Origin: Bifidobacterium bifidum ATCC 29521 = JCM 1255 = DSM 20456
GTDB taxonomy: Bacteria > Actinomycetota > Actinomycetes > Actinomycetales > Bifidobacteriaceae
Reading direction: 5' to 3'
Assembly: GCF_001025135.1 (NCBI RefSeq)
Contig: NZ_AP012323.1
Span: forward strand, 248,001-312,000
Length of the DNA: 64,000 nucleotides
Of the stretch, positions 10,389 to 55,880 are shown one piece after another. The notes beneath the pieces are model-generated. The model ran no database searches. It was not told the origin of the DNA and worked only from the letters and a program-made list of their open reading frames with translations. Made by a program: the position numbers and the translations under genes. The stretch's first letter is position 1. Every line of letters starts with the position of its first letter.

Positions 10389-10423
10389 ATTTATATATCG
10401 GCAACCTGTGTGCCGCAGAAAAG

Positions 10424-10565
10424 GCGTCACTGTGTGAGGGTTACGTCACTGTGTGCGTCCTCACACTCCGTGACGCACCCCCGCAACCCTTGCAAAATAA
10501 GGGTTTTGCGATTTACGTCACTGTGTGAGGGCTCGCAGCGTGACGGTGGTCGCGCACAGTGACGC
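10424..10565. repeat. Dyad element with six GTCACTGTGTG-type units
   Basis: The five-base core GTCAC starts at 10426, 10445 and 10517 on the + strand; its complement GTGAC starts at 10470, 10540 and 10559. The pattern is mirror-symmetric about position 10495. A central hairpin, CGCAACCCTT with AAGGGTTTTGCG, lies at 10482-10509. The rest of the 395-base gap between fhs and the next gene holds only the fhs terminator. Function is unknown. Confidence 0.7.
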
Positions 10566-10606
10566 CATGCGCGACAATATAGCGGCGGATACCATCACAC
10601 CTGAGC

Positions 10607-18225: not shown

Positions 18226-18888
18226 ATGATGAAGGCCGTGTTCTTCGACTTGGACGGGACGCTGATCGATTCCGATCCGTATTGGGTGCGCTCTCAGGAG
18301 ACCTTGGTGCGCTCCTGTGGCGGGGAATGGAGCGACACGCTCGCCGATGCGCTGCAGGGGGCGGCCTTCCCCGAGACCGTGCGTCTGCTGCGCGGTGCGG
18401 GGGTCGATTGGGATGGCGATGCAATCGTGCGGCACCTGTCCGATGAGGTGCTGCGCATGGAAAAGGAGCGTCTGCCGTGGATTGAGGGCGTTCGCGATGT
18501 GCTGTCCGGTCTGGCGGCGGCGCACGTTCCGGCCGTGCTGGTGACCGGCTCCCCGCGCGAGATCGTCGAGAATGTGATGGCGCAGGCGCCTAAGGGCGCG
18601 TTCGTCGGCTATGTGTGCGGCAACGACGATGTGACGCCGAAGCCCGATCCGGCGCCGTATTGGCGTGCGGCGTCGATGGTCGGGCTGCCGGCCGATGCGT
18701 CGGGTGCTGGTCAGTGTCTGGTTTTCGAGGATTCCAAGCCCGGGTTGACGGCGGCTCGGGCGTCGGGCGCGACGGTGGTCGCGGTCACCGGTCATGCTCG
18801 TGTGGATATGAGCGACAGTGGGCTGTGCGATGAGGCAATCGTTGACTATCGCGGGCTGACCATCGCCGATTTGGCCGGCTGGATGTGA
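18226..18888 (+). CDS. HAD-family hydrolase (beta-phosphoglucomutase/phosphatase-like)
   Basis: This 220-residue haloacid dehalogenase superfamily protein, subfamily I, has the nucleophile motif FFDLDGTLIDSD (Asp8 and Asp10), a helical cap (about residues 18-85), motif II in LVTGSPRE, and motifs III/IV in KPDPAPYWRAA and CLVFEDSKPGLTAARASG. The ED pair and the DSxxG form place it near sugar-phosphate phosphatases and beta-phosphoglucomutases. Its substrate cannot be told. AAGGAGGA at 18213-18220 selects the ATG at 18226 (or 18229); the ATG at 18220 overlaps the ribosome site. Confidence 0.88.
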   Translation: MMKAVFFDLDGTLIDSDPYWVRSQETLVRSCGGEWSDTLADALQGAAFPETVRLLRGAGVDWDGDAIVRHLSDEVLRMEKERLPWIEGVRDVLSGLAAAHVPAVLVTGSPREIVENVMAQAPKGAFVGYVCGNDDVTPKPDPAPYWRAASMVGLPADASGAGQCLVFEDSKPGLTAARASGATVVAVTGHARVDMSDSGLCDEAIVDYRGLTIADLAGWM

Positions 18889-19012
18889 TGTGCCAGCCAG
18901 ATTGTCGTGGCGTTGCAACGGTTTCATGGGTTGTTCCCTCATATTCGCACGTGTTTGAGCTTCGCGTGACTCGGTCGGATAACAGGAACTTCATCCTTCG
19001 GCGCGAAAGCGG

Positions 19013-19206
19013 CATCTGCGTTTCGAGGGGGTGATTTCGTCTCGCCCAAACATCTATCTACGTTTCGAGGGGTTGCTGTCTGCCAGTATACGAAGTATGA
19101 GGGGCGGAATATCGCCATCAATATAGGGAGGATTGACGAAAAGCAACCCCTTGAAATGCAGATAGATGTCTGCGAGGGCTGCGATCAACCCCTTGAAACC
19201 GAGAAA
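19013..19206. repeat. Family-1 dyad element, copy A
   Basis: Four related ~20-base units are present. Two point right (ATCTGCGTTTCGAGGGGGTG at 19014 and ATCTACGTTTCGAGGGGTTG at 19056), and two point left (CAACCCCTTGAAATGCAGAT at 19144 and CAACCCCTTGAAACCGAGA from 19186). Units in each arm are 42 bases apart and the centre is 68 bases. The same design recurs at 33656-33864 and 48840-49048. Confidence 0.85.
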
Positions 19207-19375
19207 GTGGTGTTGCGGACTCTTTTCGTGTGGTGGCGCTTGATTATGTTGTGGCTTGGCTGCGACATATTGCGAGTGCACTGTCGATGATGAGTGAATG
19301 GCGGTGGGGATGCCATTCGATGATATGAAGCTCGTCAAGCGTGGAATCTCCAGTGTACGAGCACGAATCCGCTCG

Positions 19376-19492
19376 TTTGCGTCCCTAAGTGCGCGCCGAA
19401 ACGACGACCGTGCGCACATAGGGACGCAAACAGGGGCATTTGCGTCCTTATGTTCGCGCGCTTGTCGTTTCGGCGCGCACTTAAGGACGCAA
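19376..19492. repeat. Family-2 dyad element, copy A
   Basis: The core GCGTCC occurs rightward at 19379 and 19442, and GGACGC leftward at 19422 and 19485. Both pairs are exactly 63 bases apart. Flanking matches (GTGCGCGCCGAAACGAC with GTCGTTTCGGCGCGCAC) make the whole element a large imperfect palindrome. The second copy lies at 55661-55775. Confidence 0.85.
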
Positions 19493-19990
19493 CTCGGGGA
19501 GTGACGGGAGTGTAGGCACGTATGTGGGCCTTGCGGCGCAGCAAAGATATGGGGCAGTCCCAAAGAAACCGGGTGAAGGTAGCGGTGTGAATGAGCGCGG
19601 CATGTACGAACACGGGGTAGGTGGGCAATGCGCAATCAGCAGGAACGGTGGTGCGTCTCGGGCGGGAATGGTCGGAAGGATCCAGCGCGCTGACAAGTAG
19701 GAGGGGCGGGCTTGCGAGGCGAACCAGCATGGAAGGAGTTGGCGCACCGCATTGACTGGCGGGAGCGAGCGGCGGAACGAAAGGGGTGTAAACAAGGCAA
19801 CGGGGAGTGCCGCGTGTGACCGTTTACATACATGAGTGTAGGGATTGTGTGACGACTCGCTGTGCGCGCTAACACGATTTGCGTTTTGCCAGTGGTTGCG
19901 ATATATGAGTATCAACGATAATTTCGGTTGCGGTGATGGAATCGAAACAAGCAATTGGAGCTGTATAAGTAGTAATACAAGGGGACAATC

Positions 19991-20086
19991 ATGAATAACG
20001 ATCAGAACAAGGTCATGGACCAGCGCGAGATCCGCGAGGACGAGTCGCAGGATTGGGCGACGCTGTTCGCCGGTCTCGCCGCCTGA
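19991..20086 (+). CDS. Possible 31-residue peptide
   Basis: A short ORF begins ATG at 19991 with AAGGGGACA directly upstream, and ends TGA at 20084-20086. The peptide begins MNNDQNKVMDQREIRED, is strongly acidic and polar, and ends in a hydrophobic tail (DWATLFAGLAA). It is too short for family recognition. An acidic leader ending in a small hydrophobic stretch recalls leader peptides of modified peptides, but no cysteine-rich core or modification enzyme is nearby. It could equally be a chance ORF; the ribosome site and codon use are the only support. Confidence 0.35.
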   Translation: MNNDQNKVMDQREIREDESQDWATLFAGLAA

Positions 20087-20343
20087 GCGCGCCGAAATAT
20101 CCTGACCGAGGCGCACTTGCCGGATTGACGATACATCGCCGTACATGGAATCCGACAGTCACCCATCGGCAGGACGACGCAGCAACCTTCATGCGCAACG
20201 CCGTCGAAGCCGCCATCAAAGCCGGCGCTTCGACCGCCATACCAGCAGCCGTTCCTTCTGCCATCGACGGCGCGACCGTGAGACCGATTGACCAAAAGTG
20301 AGTGAACCGGCTCACGTCCCGTTGACGCGGCACAATGGAACGT

Positions 20344-22039: not shown

Positions 22040-22105
22040 ACTGCCCCCGCAGGGGTGTCACGAAGCGACTGGGGGAGTCTCCGCCGATCAGGCGGGCAGA
22101 ACTCC
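22040..22105. repeat. GC-rich intergenic repeat, copy 2
   Basis: GCCCCCGCAGGGG is followed by GTCACGAAGCGACTGGGGG, the signature of the window-wide GC-rich family. Confidence 0.55.
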
Positions 22106-23006: not shown

Positions 23007-23494
23007 TGTCTCATTTGCAATTTCATCAATACAGTGTCTGATAATTCATCAATAGGATTCATGCAAATTCATCAGTAGGATTCGTGATAATCTGTCAGTG
23101 CATGTCTTATATCGTTGCAATATAAGGTTTTTTGACAGTCTTTGTGGCTCAGTTGACGATGGTAGTGCGGTAATGGCGCATTCGTGAGAATCTCGACCAT
23201 GTCATGCGACCCGCGGCTCAATTGACGTGAGCCGTTTCGCCATCCTCGATGATGGTCGGTGGAGATGCAGCCTAACGTATCTGCATCGTGCCGTCTCGTT
23301 CGATGTTACCGCATAACGCTTTTGTTGACTGGATTGGTTGGGATATTTTTGGAGTCTATCGGATTTCGTCGGTGGTCAAGAGCCCGTCCCAAAACCGTTG
23401 GAAATCCTCGCGACACGCCGTGAGTTGCAGTGGGCTGGATATTGCCGTATAGTTTTCATCTGTTGCGCGGCACGCCGCACAGCGGATAACTCAA
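23007..23494. other. AT-richer intergenic region before tRNA genes
   Basis: This 488-base gap contains short direct repeats (TTCATCAATAGGATTC and TTCATCAGTAGGATTC near 23046-23082). On the minus strand, 23356-23470 shows a coding-looking stretch ending QRFWDGLLTTDEIR and a TAG, with no clear start. It may be a gene remnant. Nothing else was recognised. Confidence 0.35.
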
Positions 23495-23716: not shown

Positions 23717-23774
23717 GTTTCCCGGCGCATTCAGCCGGCGGATTCGTGGCCTATAGGCCGGATCCGTCCAAAAT

Positions 23775-23884
23775 ACGGGTTGAAATCGCCGAAATCTACT
23801 ATTCCCCGTGTGAAATCGCCGTTTTTGAACCTTAAAACGGCGATTTCACACGGGGAATTGCCAAGAACGGCGATTTCAACCCGT
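23775..23884. repeat. Dyad element with TGAAATCGCCG units
   Basis: This is a 110-base near-perfect palindrome. TGAAATCGCCG occurs rightward at 23781 and 23811, and CGGCGATTTCA leftward at 23838 and 23868, both 30 bases apart. The ends are ACGGGT and ACCCGT. It lies in the gap before the metallophosphoesterase gene. Only one copy was found in the window. Confidence 0.85.
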
Positions 23885-23964
23885 AATTCAGTGTCCCGGC
23901 CCGCTCAAGACACGCCATGGTGCTGTCAGGCACGGTCAAGGTGGTATGTACTACGCTGTGAGTT

Positions 23965-33449: not shown

Positions 33450-33473
33450 GTTGACATGGTGTTTTGCCGGTGT

Positions 33474-33617
33474 CCCCCCCCCAGTCGGCCTTACGGCCGG
33501 TGGTGCCGTCCGTAGGCGAAGGCGAGCCGGCCGGCGAGCGAATAAGGTCGCGCCCGCAGGACGGGCGTCCTTGACTGCAGGGCCCGAAGGGCTGTCGCGA
33601 AGCGACTGGGGGTGGTC
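33474..33617. repeat. GC-rich intergenic repeat, copy 5
   Basis: CCCCCCCCAGTCGGCCTTACGGCCGG, the segments GCCCGCAGGACGGGC and GGGCCCGAAGGGC, and a final GTCGCGAAGCGACTGGGGGTGG form paired ends of one composite hairpin. It sits directly beside the family-1 element. Confidence 0.6.
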
Positions 33618-33655
33618 CCACATCGTGAGTGTGATTCGAGGTCTACGATCCGACG

Positions 33656-33864
33656 CTATCTGCATTTCGAGGGGTTGATTCGACGGTCGCGAAACATCTA
33701 TCTACGTTTCGAGGGGGTGCCGAAACGCGATACCTGGAGTATTGAGCGCTAATCGCCATTGGAACCATGCCGTTCTGGAGGCGTTCATACTTGGCTACCA
33801 ACCCCCTGAAACGCAGATAGATGTCCCATGGGACTCGAATCAACCCCTTGAAAGCGAGATATCG
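33656..33864. repeat. Family-1 dyad element, copy B
   Basis: Rightward units start at 33658 and 33700, and leftward units at 33799 and 33841. Each pair is again 42 bases apart, with a 79-base centre. The units read ATCTACGTTTCGAGGGGGTG and CAACCCCCTGAAACGCAGAT. The surrounding 562-base gap holds no gene. Confidence 0.87.
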
Positions 33865-36676: not shown

Positions 36677-36695
36677 TCCGCTGTATCAGCGAATC

Positions 36696-36835
36696 GTTCT
36701 CAATAGCGTTTGTGCGAGTACTCCTCACATTTGCGAACAAAACGAACATCGGCTTACTCGTTGGAATATCGGCCATATGCATACAATCATGTTCGTTTTG
36801 CCGACGACGGGACTCGCACGTTTCTTATCGAGAAC
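36696..36835. repeat. Nested inverted repeat upstream of murA
   Basis: Three nested pairs share nearly one centre. These are GTTCTC (36696) with GAGAAC (36830), GTGCGAGT (36712) with ACTCGCAC (36812), and AAAACGAACAT (36739) with ATGTTCGTTTT (36789). It fills most of the 278-base gap before murA. It is a single-copy element in this window. Confidence 0.75.
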
Positions 36836-36954
36836 CATTCGCTGCGACATGGTAATCGGCTTCCGGCGCATTTCACGTGCCCGCCACATGCCGTATGGCA
36901 AACTAATGGATGTGATGTCCGGGGTGGCCCGGCGAATGAATAGGAGTGTTGAGG

Positions 36955-38280
36955 ATGGCGGAATCGGAGAACGATGTCCTGCATGTGGTCGGCGGCAAAC
37001 CGCTGAACGGCACGATCAAGGTGCGTGGCGCGAAGAACTTCGTGAGCAAGGCGATGGTCGCGGCGCTGCTCGCCCCCGGCAAGTCGGTGCTGAAGAACGT
37101 GCCCGAGATTCGCGATGTGCATGTGGTGTCCGATCTGCTGCGCCTGCATGGCGTGGATGTGGAGGTGGATGGCACCAACGGCATCGTCAACATCGACGCG
37201 ACGCATGTGCAGCTCGCCGATGTGGCGGATGTCGACACGCTGTCCGGCTCTTCGCGCATTCCGATCCTGTTCTCCGGCCCGCTGGTGCATCGTCTCGGCG
37301 AGGCGTTCATCCCGGCGCTGGGAGGTTGCGCGATCGGCGGCCGTCCGATTGATTTCCATCTGGAAACGCTGCGCAAGCTGGGTGCCACGGTCGACAAGGA
37401 GCACAAGGACGGCATTCACATCACCGCTCCGAACGGCCTGCACGGCGCGAAGATCCATCTGCCGTACCCGTCCGTGGGCGCGACCGAGCAGACGCTGCTG
37501 GCCGCCGTGCTCGCCGAAGGCAAGACCGAGCTGTCGGGTGCCGCAATCGAGCCCGAGATCATGGATCTGGTGGCCGTGCTGCAGAAGATGGGCGCGATCA
37601 TTTCGGTGGATGTGGATCGCACGTTCCGCATCGAGGGCGTCAAGGAGCTCAATGGCTTCACGCACACGTCGCTGACCGACCGCATCGAGGCCGCCAGCTG
37701 GGCGTCGGCGGCGCTCGCCACGCGCGGCGACATTTTCGTCAAGGGTGCTACGCAGCCGGAGATGATGACGTTCCTCAACGTGTTCCGCAAGGTCGGCGGC
37801 AAGTTCGAGGTGACCGACAGGGGCATCCGTTTCTGGCATCCGGGCGGCGACCTCAAGCCCGTGGCCATCGAGACGGATGTGCACCCCGGTTTCATGACCG
37901 ACTGGCAGCAGCCGCTGGTCGTGGCGCTCACCCAGGCGAATGGCCTGTCGATTGTGCACGAGACCGTGTATGAGAACCGATTCGGCTTCACCAAGCCGCT
38001 TGTGCAGATGGGTGCGACGATTCAGCTGTATCGCGAGTGCCTCGGCTCGCTGCCGTGCCGTTTCCAGCAGCGCAACTACAAGCATTCCGCTGTGATTTTC
38101 GGACCGACCCCGTTGACCGGCCGCGATATCGACGTGCCGGATCTGCGTGGCGGTTTCAGCCATCTGATTGCGGCGCTTGCCGCGTCCGGCCCGTCCAATG
38201 TGCATGGCATTTCGCTGATTGACCGCGGCTACGCGGATTTCCGCGGCAAGCTCGCCGCGCTCGGTGCCGATTTCGAGTAA
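36955..38280 (+). CDS. murA: UDP-N-acetylglucosamine 1-carboxyvinyltransferase
   Basis: MurA transfers enolpyruvate from PEP to UDP-GlcNAc, the first committed step of peptidoglycan synthesis. This 441-residue protein has the fosfomycin-target Cys at residue 125 in LGGCAIGGRPIDFH, the N-terminal GGKPLNGTIKVRGAKN (Lys near 22 and Asn near 28 contact substrate in known structures), and the C-terminal LRGGFSHLIAALAASG. The family size is about 420-450. AGGAG at 36942 gives good spacing to the ATG at 36955; a GTG at 36946 was rejected because it overlaps that site. It is cytosolic, with a terminator directly after. Confidence 0.97.
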   Translation: MAESENDVLHVVGGKPLNGTIKVRGAKNFVSKAMVAALLAPGKSVLKNVPEIRDVHVVSDLLRLHGVDVEVDGTNGIVNIDATHVQLADVADVDTLSGSSRIPILFSGPLVHRLGEAFIPALGGCAIGGRPIDFHLETLRKLGATVDKEHKDGIHITAPNGLHGAKIHLPYPSVGATEQTLLAAVLAEGKTELSGAAIEPEIMDLVAVLQKMGAIISVDVDRTFRIEGVKELNGFTHTSLTDRIEAASWASAALATRGDIFVKGATQPEMMTFLNVFRKVGGKFEVTDRGIRFWHPGGDLKPVAIETDVHPGFMTDWQQPLVVALTQANGLSIVHETVYENRFGFTKPLVQMGATIQLYRECLGSLPCRFQQRNYKHSAVIFGPTPLTGRDIDVPDLRGGFSHLIAALAASGPSNVHGISLIDRGYADFRGKLAALGADFE

Positions 38281-48839: not shown

Positions 48840-49048
48840 CTATCTGCGTTTCGAGGGGGTGATTCGGGATGCGCCGGACATCTATCTACGTTTCGAGGGG
48901 TTGATAGCCAAGTATAAACGCTACGGGAATCGCATGATTCCAGCAAGAATCAGGTCGAAATACTCCGCATATCGTGTTTTGGCAACCCCTTGAAACGCAG
49001 ATAGATGTCCCCAGACTGCAAAATCACCCCCTCGAAACGCAGATAGGA
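48840..49048. repeat. Family-1 dyad element, copy C
   Basis: Rightward units start at 48842 and 48884, and leftward units at 48983 and about 49025. Each pair is 42 bases apart, with a 79-base centre as in copy B. It lies between the tRNA-Arg terminator and the end of the LacI gene, filling nearly the whole gap. Confidence 0.87.
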
Positions 49049-50199: not shown

Positions 50200-50306
50200 A
50201 GATAGATGAAAGAAAATTTCTAGAATAAGTGATGATTTTTCTAAAAAAAGTGTATGATGGGAACGAAACGCAATACATCGAGAACCATTGAGGCGAAGGA
50301 GCCAAC

Positions 50307-52633: not shown

Positions 52634-54886
52634 ATGTCAACTTCTGGCCGTTTTACGATTCCGAGTGAATCGAACTTCGCGGAGAAGACCGCGGAACTGG
52701 CCCGGTTGTGGGGTGCCGACGCGGTTCGCAACTCGGATGGCACGCAGTTGGACGACGAGGTCGTGGCGCTGGGTATGAAGGTCTACACGGCCTACTTCCC
52801 GACCCGCGCGCACAACGAGTGGATCACGCTGCACATGGACGAGACCCCGCAGGTGTACCTGCTGTCGAAGCGTGCGCTGGCGGAGAGCGACACGGTGGAC
52901 GTGTCTCTGATGGACGGTTTCTTCGAGGAGCAGCTCAAGCCGAACTTCGACGCCGACCCGCACAAGTACTGGGAAGTCGTGGACCGTTCGACGGGCGCCG
53001 TGGTGCCGACCGAGCAGTGGACCGTGGACGCCGAAGCGGGCGTAGTGCACGTCTTCGGCGCGGAACTGATGCACGAGTACACGGTCTCGTTCCTCGCGTA
53101 CATCATCTGGGATCCGGTCGAGATGTACAACCACCTGACGAACGGGTGGGGCGACAAGGAGCACGAGATTCCGTTCGATATCTACCACCCGGCGACGCGC
53201 AAGTTCGTGTTCGACACGTTCGAGCAGTGGCTCAAGGACAACCCGCAGGTGGATGTCGTGCGTTTCACGACGTTCTTCTACCAGTTCACGCTGCTGTTCG
53301 ACCAGAAGCAGCGCGAGAAGGTCGTGGACTGGTTCGGATGCGCCTGCACCGTGAGCCCGGCCGCGCTCGACGACTTCGAGAAGGAGTACGGCTACCGCCT
53401 GCGTCCCGAAGACTTCGTAGATGGCGGCGCCTATAACTCCGCGTGGCGCGTGCCGCGCAAGCCGCAGCGCGACTGGATCGACTTCCTGAGCCATTTCGTA
53501 CGCGCGAACGTGAAGAAACTCGCATCGCTGTCGCACGAGGCCGGCAAGGAAGCGATGATGTTCCTGGGTGACCAGTGGATCGGTACCGAGCCGTACAAGG
53601 ATGGTTTCGAGGATCTGGGCCTGGATGCTGTCGTCGGTTCGATCGGTGACGGCACCACGACCCGCATGATCGCGGACATCCCGGGCGTGAAGTACACGGA
53701 GGGTCGTTTCCTGCCGTACTTCTTCCCCGACACGTTCTACGAGGGCAACGACCCGAGCATCGAGGCATGGGACAACTGGCGCAAGGCCCGTCGTGCCATC
53801 CTGCGTTCCCCGATCGCCCGCATGGGCTACGGCGGATACCTGTCGCTGGCCGCGAAGTTCCCGAAGTTCGTGGACGCGGTGGAGCACATCTCGGATGAGT
53901 TCCGCGACATCCACGACCGCACCGACGGCGAGGCGGCCCGCGGCGTGCTCAACGTGGCGATCCTGAACTGCTGGGGCAAGATGCGTTCGTGGATGGCCTA
54001 CACGGTCGCCCACGCGCTGCCGAACAAGCAGACGTATTCGTATTACGGCATTCTGGAGTCGCTGTCGGGCATGCGCGTGAACGTGCGGTTCATCAGCTTC
54101 GATGATGTGCTGGAGCATGGCGTCGCCGACGACATCGACGTGATCGTGACCGGTGGCCCGGTCGACACCGCGTTCTCCGGTGGCTCGGTGTGGGCCGAGG
54201 AGCCGCGCCTTGCGGCGACGCTGCGTGCCTGGGTGCACGGCGGCGGCGCCCTGATTGGCGTGGGCCAGCCGAGCGCCCAGCAGTTCCAGGGTCGTTTCTT
54301 CCAGCTGGCCGATGTGCTGGGTGTGGACGAGGAGCGTCACCAGACGCTGTCGGTGGACAAGTACTTCCCGGCCGTCACGCCGGAGCACTTCATCACCGCC
54401 GACGTGCATCTGGGCGAAGGTGTGCTGCAGGGCTTCCTCGACGCCGGATACCGCAAGCCCCTGTCGGGCTGCGGCGGCGGTCAGGCGATCGGCGAGCTTG
54501 GCGGCATCGACTTCGGCGAGCCGATCGCGAACACGTTCCCGGTCAACGAGGACGTGACGCTGCTGCGTGCCGACGGCGGTCAGGTGCAGCTCGCGGTCAA
54601 CGAGTATGGCAAGGGCCGCGGCGTATACGTCTCCGGTCTGCCCTACTCGGCCGCGAACGCCCGTCTGCTGGAGCGTGCCCTGTTCTGGGCCTCCCACAAC
54701 GAGGGCAAGTATGCGGCATACAGCTCGTCGAACCCCGAGTGCGAGGTCGCGGTGTTCGACAAGTCGGGTTGCTACTGCGTTGTCAACAACACGGATCGCG
54801 CGCAGTCCACGTATGTGGAGCGCGGCGACGGTCGCATCGAGCGCATCGAACTGGCGCCCAGCGGTATCGCCTGGCGCACCATCTGA
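52634..54886 (+). CDS. lnpA: 1,3-beta-galactosyl-N-acetylhexosamine phosphorylase, GH112
   Basis: This cytosolic enzyme splits lacto-N-biose and galacto-N-biose with phosphate to galactose 1-phosphate and GlcNAc or GalNAc, the entry step of the bifidobacterial GNB/LNB pathway. It has 750 residues, the family length. The catalytic Asp is D313 in MFLGDQW, the numbering known for B. longum LnbP. The TIM-barrel, then a trimerisation domain and C-terminal beta domain, are of usual size. GAAAGGAAC precedes ATG at 52634. It is alone here: the usual nahK, lnpC/D and transporter genes are absent, so this is likely the second, unlinked copy (LnpA2) known in B. bifidum. A strong terminator follows. Confidence 0.97.
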   Translation: MSTSGRFTIPSESNFAEKTAELARLWGADAVRNSDGTQLDDEVVALGMKVYTAYFPTRAHNEWITLHMDETPQVYLLSKRALAESDTVDVSLMDGFFEEQLKPNFDADPHKYWEVVDRSTGAVVPTEQWTVDAEAGVVHVFGAELMHEYTVSFLAYIIWDPVEMYNHLTNGWGDKEHEIPFDIYHPATRKFVFDTFEQWLKDNPQVDVVRFTTFFYQFTLLFDQKQREKVVDWFGCACTVSPAALDDFEKEYGYRLRPEDFVDGGAYNSAWRVPRKPQRDWIDFLSHFVRANVKKLASLSHEAGKEAMMFLGDQWIGTEPYKDGFEDLGLDAVVGSIGDGTTTRMIADIPGVKYTEGRFLPYFFPDTFYEGNDPSIEAWDNWRKARRAILRSPIARMGYGGYLSLAAKFPKFVDAVEHISDEFRDIHDRTDGEAARGVLNVAILNCWGKMRSWMAYTVAHALPNKQTYSYYGILESLSGMRVNVRFISFDDVLEHGVADDIDVIVTGGPVDTAFSGGSVWAEEPRLAATLRAWVHGGGALIGVGQPSAQQFQGRFFQLADVLGVDEERHQTLSVDKYFPAVTPEHFITADVHLGEGVLQGFLDAGYRKPLSGCGGGQAIGELGGIDFGEPIANTFPVNEDVTLLRADGGQVQLAVNEYGKGRGVYVSGLPYSAANARLLERALFWASHNEGKYAAYSSSNPECEVAVFDKSGCYCVVNNTDRAQSTYVERGDGRIERIELAPSGIAWRTI

Positions 54887-55660: not shown

Positions 55661-55775
55661 TTTGCGTCCGTAAGTGCGCGCCGAAACGACGACCGTGCGC
55701 ACTTACGGACGCAAATCGGGCCTTTTGCGTCCATATGTTCGCGCACTTGTCGTTTCGGCGCGCACTTACGGACGC
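55661..55775. repeat. Family-2 dyad element, copy B
   Basis: GCGTCC occurs at 55664 and 55727, and GGACGC at 55707 and 55770, with spacings of 63 bases exactly as in copy A. Apart from a few substitutions, the rest of the element matches copy A at 19376-19492. Confidence 0.87.
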
Positions 55776-55786
55776 TTTGGGAGCGC

Positions 55787-55880
55787 CCCCAATCTCGCTC
55801 CGCTCGACAGCCCCCTGTCAGCGGGAGTGCGGCCAACGCTCCCGCTGGCGGGGCTGTCGCAAAGCGACTGGGGCGGTTCA
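55787..55880. repeat. GC-rich intergenic repeat, copy 7
   Basis: CGCTCGACAGCCCCCTGTCAGCGGGAG, then CTCCCGCTGGCGGGGCTGTCG and CAAAGCGACTGGGGCGG. It directly adjoins the family-2 element; the whole gap 55501-56093 holds only these repeats and the ridA hairpin. Confidence 0.6.

Follow-up and report, generated by a model that had tools for sequence, protein, structure and literature searches.

Five families of short intergenic dyads are dispersed in the genome of Bifidobacterium bifidum, and each is linked to one gene for a protein of what sequence comparison indicates is a single kind, the AbiEi-like/Vsr-like (DUF559-type) nuclease superfamily. The analysis established the dispersed phased dyads, the constraint on their half-sites, the family-specific linkage and co-inheritance with a nuclease clade, and the catalytic-type residues of these proteins; binding, cutting, copying, mobility and benefit to the host we infer. 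On balance we consider it probable that each family consists of non-autonomous DNA elements which, with their own single-copy AbiEi-like enzyme bearing a Vsr/DUF559-type (EDxHD-like) nuclease domain, are copied rarely.

Five families of intergenic dyads

The window, meaning the whole stretch of DNA that was analyzed, comprised 64,000 nt (positions 248001-312000) of the single 2,211,039-bp B. bifidum contig. Sampled genomes carry G-numbers, G000 being the home B. bifidum genome, and fetched loci carry L-numbers. In window positions, the intergenic gap at 18889-20343, between a plus-strand gene ending at 18888 and gltX at 20335, holds one copy of family 1 (19012-19207) and one of family 2 (19376-19490). 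This family 1 copy has an inner spacing one turn shorter than usual (93, not 104, measured start to start); further copies lie at 33656-33861, with four half-sites at 42/98/42, and at 48840-49046, directly downstream of tRNA-Arg. With at most 3 mismatches allowed, the family 1 half-site CTATCTRCGTTTCGAGGGG matched 10 times in the window, compared to 0.03 expected from shuffles. The family 2 copy in the gap has four half-sites with spacing 37/26/37 and a direct spacing of 63, and a second copy lies at 55661-55775. Family 3 is represented by a TGAAATCGCCG dyad at 23771-23888, family 4 by a GTCAC array with a central AAACCCTT..AAGGGTTT dyad at 10423-10566, and family 5 by an element with terminal 32-bp inverted half-sites at 36682-36849, upstream of an EPSP_synthase/MurA-type gene (36946-38280).

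The window also contains repeats outside these families. An extra intergenic repeat, GCTGTCGCNAAGCGACTGGGG, was observed at 22054-22074, 33591-33611 and 55853-55873 (3 matches versus 0.01 expected) and forms part of more extended GC-rich regions near 33473-33620 and 55775-55880. Three direct repeats resembling TGATAATTCATCAATAGGATTC, spaced by 23 bp, lie at 23016-23091 upstream of a DUF4143 gene, and a 21-bp tandem repeat, TTTCTAAAAAAAGTGTATGATT, occupies 50217-50258, in the gap preceding the gene at 50288 or 50572.

Across the 2.21 Mb genome the five families were found at 86 places after overlapping matches had been merged by hand: 19 for family 1, 26 for family 2 (21 of them full length), 10 for family 3, 16 for family 4 and 15 for family 5. 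Among copies of families 1 to 4 for which both neighboring genes could be called (n=63), 60 were clear of both genes and 3 overlapped one of them by 7-29 bp. Elements of all five families measured about 110-207 bp, and the original prediction of intergenic, dyad-symmetric families built from half-sites was thus borne out genome-wide. In a genus sample of 101 Bifidobacterium genomes, one per species and G000 included, matches to families 1 to 5 were obtained in 17, 4, 4, 6 and 16 genomes respectively, some of these matches being weak or spurious. When 84,980 species were scanned for two facing inner constant modules of family 1, 89 stretches were obtained, and the 80 of these that were listed all came from Bifidobacterium. 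No match to the family 1 dyad pattern was obtained in viral contigs, and no family 1 element in plasmids and phages. Two lone family 1 half-sites in G000, at 1100129 and 2120303, looked like chance matches, and a decayed family 1-type element with another half-site specificity (GAGGTACATT) was noted at 1134755-1134960 (L281).

A family 1 element consists of four half-sites of about 25 bp, two in direct orientation in each arm, starting at 0, 42, 140 and 182. Each half-site combines a constant 11-bp module, CTATCTGCGTT, with a module that varies between species but tends to be shared by all four half-sites and by most copies within one genome. Inner dyad lengths in 80 elements fell into three classes, 111-112 (10 elements), 121-124 (67) and 131-132 (3), with none between. 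Spacing was also counted with a single half-site search, which presupposes no distance between sites and whose reversed control pattern gave no match. In three genomes, with B. subtile set aside (133 sites, 8 among the matches listed), the direct spacing was 42 in 27 of 28 adjacent pairs, and inner distances were 104-105 (34), 93 (9), 146 (2) and 133 (1); for 19 of the 142 sites the stringency used gave no partner within 400 bp. The distance of 146 reads as if one half-site had been missed, and that of 133 is a decayed copy. Inner distances stepping by about 11 bp suggest that the helix face of the DNA matters. In B. felsineum one element (L284, G021:C16:120175-120277) has an exact tandem duplication of the 42-bp half-site unit, and thus three direct half-sites in one arm.

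Arm-to-arm complementarity, computed on 78 of the 80 family 1 stretches, was 0.863 for half-sites and 0.415 for spacers, as against 0.405 for unrelated spacers. Because the spacers are not complementary, family 1 would appear to be a phased protein-binding array rather than a hairpin. Its half-sites are direct and its spacers unpaired, so that the repeat unit is not itself the palindrome or hairpin by which a REPIN-RAYT repeat is recognized.

Family 2 showed four half-sites at 37/26/37, with direct sites 63 bp apart, in 21 of 21 copies, and its relatives with different sequences again showed a spacing of 63 bp. Spacing by whole helical turns, as originally predicted for two of the families, was therefore confirmed at 42 for family 1 and 63 for family 2. 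The halves of family 2 are hairpin-like, and sites 1 and 4 covary at the three variable bases (0.73 versus 0.49, a value reached in 0 of 5000 shuffles), with weaker covariation for other site pairs. Family 3, where measurable, has a spacing of 30 bp and no whole helical turns; family 4 has spacings of 19 and 21 bp around its central dyad, so that the whole-turn rule holds only partly; and family 5 carries its 32-bp inverted half-sites at both ends.

Long inverted arms could also belong to structured RNA or terminator hairpins, and the covariation of the family 2 triplet between sites 1 and 4 would fit either pairing or repair between the arms. We regard this explanation as improbable, since the family 1 spacers are unpaired yet fixed in length, the centers change in length by steps of about 11 bp, the elements show no orientation bias, the window contains no Rfam family other than tRNAs, and hairpins are no commoner at element ends than further out. 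Terminators were likewise rejected as an insertion target: end hairpins were observed in 14 of 155 cases, compared to 8/154, 16/152, 10/147 and 8/135 in offset controls, which is no enrichment.

Nuclease genes linked to the elements

The nuclease genes were found through close pairs of family 5 elements; similarity clustering of element-flanking genes yielded mainly spurious element-derived ORFs and orthologues and missed them. In the home genome two family 5 copies, 0.9 kb apart, enclose a nuclease gene, an arrangement which recurs in G021, G071 and G040 and, in a wider version, in G090. Close pairs of families 2, 3 and 4 in the home genome enclose one nuclease gene each, and the family 1 nuclease gene adjoins the copy at 53049. 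In all, the flanks of the 86 places (about 1.5 kb per side) contain exactly five nuclease genes, one per family, usually enclosed by two copies of the family's own element. Eight further genes were found in other species, each at the matching element family: family 1 in B. subtile and B. callitrichidarum, family 4 in G016 and G033, and family 5 in G071, G021, G090 and G040. In all 13 cases the distance from the gene to the nearest element of the same family was -19 to 283 bp, with start codons as chosen by us, and 9 of the 13 genes had such an element on both sides within 406 bp. At four of the five family 5 loci the stop codon lies inside a half-site of the element; as these five loci share neighboring genes, they are treated as a single ancestral locus.

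The search for nuclease genes covered mainly stretches chosen for their elements. A control set of 20 stretches of 20 kb at even spacing (400 kb, holding 24 of the 86 elements) gave no nuclease gene at E up to 1. The window itself also encodes no nuclease of this superfamily, in agreement with the original prediction that no partner protein would be found there. Same-family pairs within 2 kb numbered 5 compared to 1.4 expected, although chance or tandem duplication can also give such pairs. The family 2 pair at 902888/904543 encloses a membrane-type ORF and was judged a tandem duplication; the second close family 2 pair holds the family 2 nuclease gene. At the family 3 locus the elements have the nuclease and otherwise only short overlapping ORFs between them. 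The nuclease-adjacent copy was nearest to the consensus for family 1 (rank 1 of 19); this was not so for families 2 to 4.

In the protein tree clades followed element family and not host species, with support of 96-100% for the clades of families 1, 4 and 5, and protein scores were 283-537 bits within families and 57-121 bits between them. The proteins of families 1, 4 and 5 (f1, f4 and f5) have a C-terminal nuclease domain in common, in which E184, D217, H234 and D241 were invariant in 12 sequences. These are catalytic-type residues in the same order (E, D, H, D) as in EDxHD enzymes, the exact positions of the motif residues being as we presume them. The best solved relative of these three proteins was 3r3p, titled 'Mobile intron protein' (E 0.01), which we take to be the homing endonuclease I-Bth0305I. 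AbiEi models (PADLOC) matched the proteins of family 3 (8.7e-8) and family 2 (7.7e-7), with f1, f4 and f5 unmatched, and by profile comparison the nuclease region of the other proteins is also present in those of families 2 and 3 (E 6e-5, probability 65%). For DUF559 (PF04480, cut-off 20.6 bits) two family 4 proteins scored above the cut-off (L336, 26.6; L251, 25.3), whereas L252 and the proteins of families 1 and 5 fell below it and those of families 2 and 3 gave no match. Family 5 proteins of two close species differed by dN 0.074 and dS 1.44, which indicates that the protein is under selection. AlphaFold2 was run on two sequences and gave a pLDDT of 37; this model was not used.

The original prediction proposed a common type of ligand, for example paralogous DNA-binding proteins. 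One linked nuclease-superfamily gene per family, in clades which match the families, supports such a ligand, with each nuclease the putative binder of its own elements. The prediction also named, as counting against it, families co-distributed with no protein and lacking conserved spacing; instead, the nuclease clades track the families and family 1 keeps its spacing of 42 in 27/28 pairs.

Slow turnover, extragenic inverted doublets and a single-copy partner gene flanked by repeats are also what would be expected of REPINs moved by RAYT, a Y1 HUH transposase. This explanation is very improbable: the family 1 half-site forms no hairpin and the spacers are unpaired, and PF01797 (Y1_Tnp), the one model used in the transposase search, had no match in G000, matched 1 of the 17 family 1-positive genomes (G017), and matched 4 of 101 genomes overall. 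On this search RAYT/Y1 transposase was rejected as the partner, and the possibility is already largely refuted.

For the family 5 nuclease, plasmids and phages yielded remote relatives only (in three plasmid records and one filed as phage), and a scan of viral contigs for the nucleases gave no relative. A record filed as phage (L337, MT837503.1) carries a DUF559-like gene, an integrase-type ORF and what we take from its sequence to be a PutA-like gene, and on this gene content looks bacterial; a near-perfect 59-bp palindrome lies 80 bp after its nuclease gene. In G046 a nuclease of the same superfamily adjoins a different type of dyad, whose arms (GCGTATCTTGCAGTTCTAGGTCAT) measure about 24 bp; this locus (L321), entered via a match to the family 5 center, was included in the protein alignment and stands outside the 13 genes.

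Age, constraint and possible movement of the copies

When 34 B. subtile copies were compared, no recent copies were found, the closest pair being 89% identical. A family 1 pair at orthologous places in two species was about 97% identical, from which it follows that the copies are old, and several copies predate species splits. In six orthologous pairs mismatches amounted to 52/600 (8.7%) in half-sites, 56/204 (27.5%) in spacers and 229/669 (34%) in flanks; this set excluded L195/L208 and L171, for which orthology was not clear, and L151/L158, which are of the same species. With fewer mismatches in half-sites than in spacers and flanks, half-sites appear to have been held in place after insertion. 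Such constraint suggests some function for the sites once inserted, a feature for which a purely selfish model has no need, and together with the absence of recent copies it may indicate that the system has come to serve the host.

Target-site duplications were sought in 77 of the 80 listed family 1 stretches and none was observed, the best match being no better than in shuffled flanks. This bears on the explanation that the elements are of MITE type, derive from a DDE transposase and have nuclease genes adjacent by coincidence. Their size, terminal symmetry and intergenic spread would suit MITEs, but MITEs have no need of phased inner half-sites, and the nuclease clade matches the element family in several species; we therefore consider it unlikely by a wide margin. 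The original suggestion of transposase-dependent elements is accordingly not supported in a DDE or RAYT version, with target-site duplications absent and PF01797 missing from the home genome. No DDE transposase gene was noticed in the stretches fetched around the elements.

Two orthologous pairs differed in their centers. Between B. tibiigranuli and B. subtile (L160/L199) the 72-bp center is inverted, with 3/72 mismatches in the inverted alignment compared to 43/72 in the direct one, and a small DNA inversion has thus occurred at the inner half-sites of a family 1 element. The center of L155/L172 (B. scaligerum and B. felsineum, near a gene that is presumably clpB, named from its sequence) is probably inverted too. 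Two of the six orthologous family 1 pairs keep the orientation of the center. The L155/L172 centers also differ in length by 12 bp, a change in place that corresponds to roughly one turn of the helix.

The main rival to rare copying is a regulatory or chromosome-organizing role, in which an AbiEi-like regulator has the dyads as its operators and autoregulates its own gene through those that flank it, the dispersed copies are selected host regulatory or chromosome-organizing sites, and the nuclease domain is idle or rarely used. The constraint on half-sites in place would be expected under such a role, as would a position bias: 61 of 86 copies lay in the dnaA-proximal half of the chromosome, nearer dnaA than expected (p 1.3e-4), including 10/10 copies of family 3. 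These counts assume a symmetric chromosome and dnaA at position 1, the gene at the contig start being taken as dnaA from its sequence; GC skew did not place the terminus. The bias was absent in family 5 (8/15) and not significant in family 2, and neighbor orientation around the 63 copies (29 tandem, 19 convergent, 15 divergent) showed no preference for divergent or promoter regions. Species-limited, quickly changing half-sites would be unusual in a housekeeping site, and the catalytic-type residues are conserved. The precedent for such operators is AbiEi itself, which is described as binding separately, at its own promoter, two inverted 23-bp half-sites that have a perfect core of 11 bp (PMC3985639). 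Overall we judge the operator explanation possible but rather unlikely.

Proposed mechanism and known systems

Rare copying by the linked nuclease, the reading we prefer, would proceed from an 'element - nuclease gene - element' unit of origin. The nuclease would bind its own half-sites of 22-25 bp, two per arm, and the bound half-sites would form one phased nucleoprotein complex on an intact dyad. Nicking or cutting by the nuclease would then allow host repair to place copies of the element, very rarely, at other intergenic positions, as RAYT enzymes do for REPINs. A target of such length has a parallel in a published EDxHD enzyme, which is described as dimerizing on nearly 60 bp (PMC3943268). 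RAYT genes are reported to be flanked by REPs and accompanied by a REPIN population in the genome (PMC3116915, PMC8049555); by analogy with this arrangement, the element-nuclease-element unit and its dispersed copies may be read as an enzyme and its rarely copied non-autonomous partners.

To our knowledge, AbiEi-Vsr-type nucleases are a common uncharacterized kind of actinobacterial protein. We put at about even the chance of a more general statement, namely that these nucleases are the partners of dispersed, helically phased dyad arrays and form a further replicating-repeat system, in which half-site module and protein change jointly, several pairs coexist, descent is vertical and the sites are constrained. 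DUF559/AbiEi-Vsr proteins would thereby gain a candidate DNA target readable from the genome, which makes their function directly testable. The families also provide long DNA sites and nucleases already matched by nature, and they make a simple system in which to follow the joint change of specificity in one protein and dozens of sites. No report of such repeat-nuclease pairs was found in the parts of the open-licence literature on bifidobacterial repeats, half-sites and DUF559/AbiEi that were accessible, and novelty is thus unproven.

ERIC, BIME and Correia elements are short, intergenic, palindromic and of MITE-like size. The present families are likewise short intergenic palindromes; unlike those elements, they combine several half-sites, fixed in spacing, with a nuclease gene specific to each family. 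In B. animalis lactis, GGGACAG(N)15TGTCCC is given as a potentially novel motif that is 95% intergenic (PMC5217627, Table 7); it too is a spaced bifidobacterial dyad, although the sequence and spacing given there differ from those of the families described here.

The AbiE type IV toxin-antitoxin system resembles the present one in the AbiEi-type domain of the family 2 and family 3 proteins, and AbiEi autoregulation resembles it in having inverted 23-bp half-sites with an 11-bp core beside the gene (PMC3985639). In contrast to AbiE, a nuclease domain is fused here and the elements are dispersed genome-wide, and at the family 3 locus, with its short overlapping ORFs besides the nuclease, no AbiEii-like gene was noticed. 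The EDxHD homing endonuclease I-Bth0305I, as the best solved relative (3r3p), shares the E, D, H, D order, but the present genes lie outside introns and are accompanied by a population of short elements.

Where a partner enzyme has been identified for interspersed bacterial repeats, the system is mainly REPIN-RAYT. That system, as described in PMC3116915 and PMC8049555, is alike in its extragenic inverted doublets, slow vertical turnover and partner gene flanked by the repeat. It differs in that the partner here is an AbiEi/Vsr-like nuclease and not a Y1 HUH transposase, and in that the half-sites of 22-25 bp are of protein-binding type with fixed helical spacing and are not hairpins. What emerges, five times over in a single genome, is a genomic logic like that of REPIN-RAYT with an unrelated nuclease as the partner.
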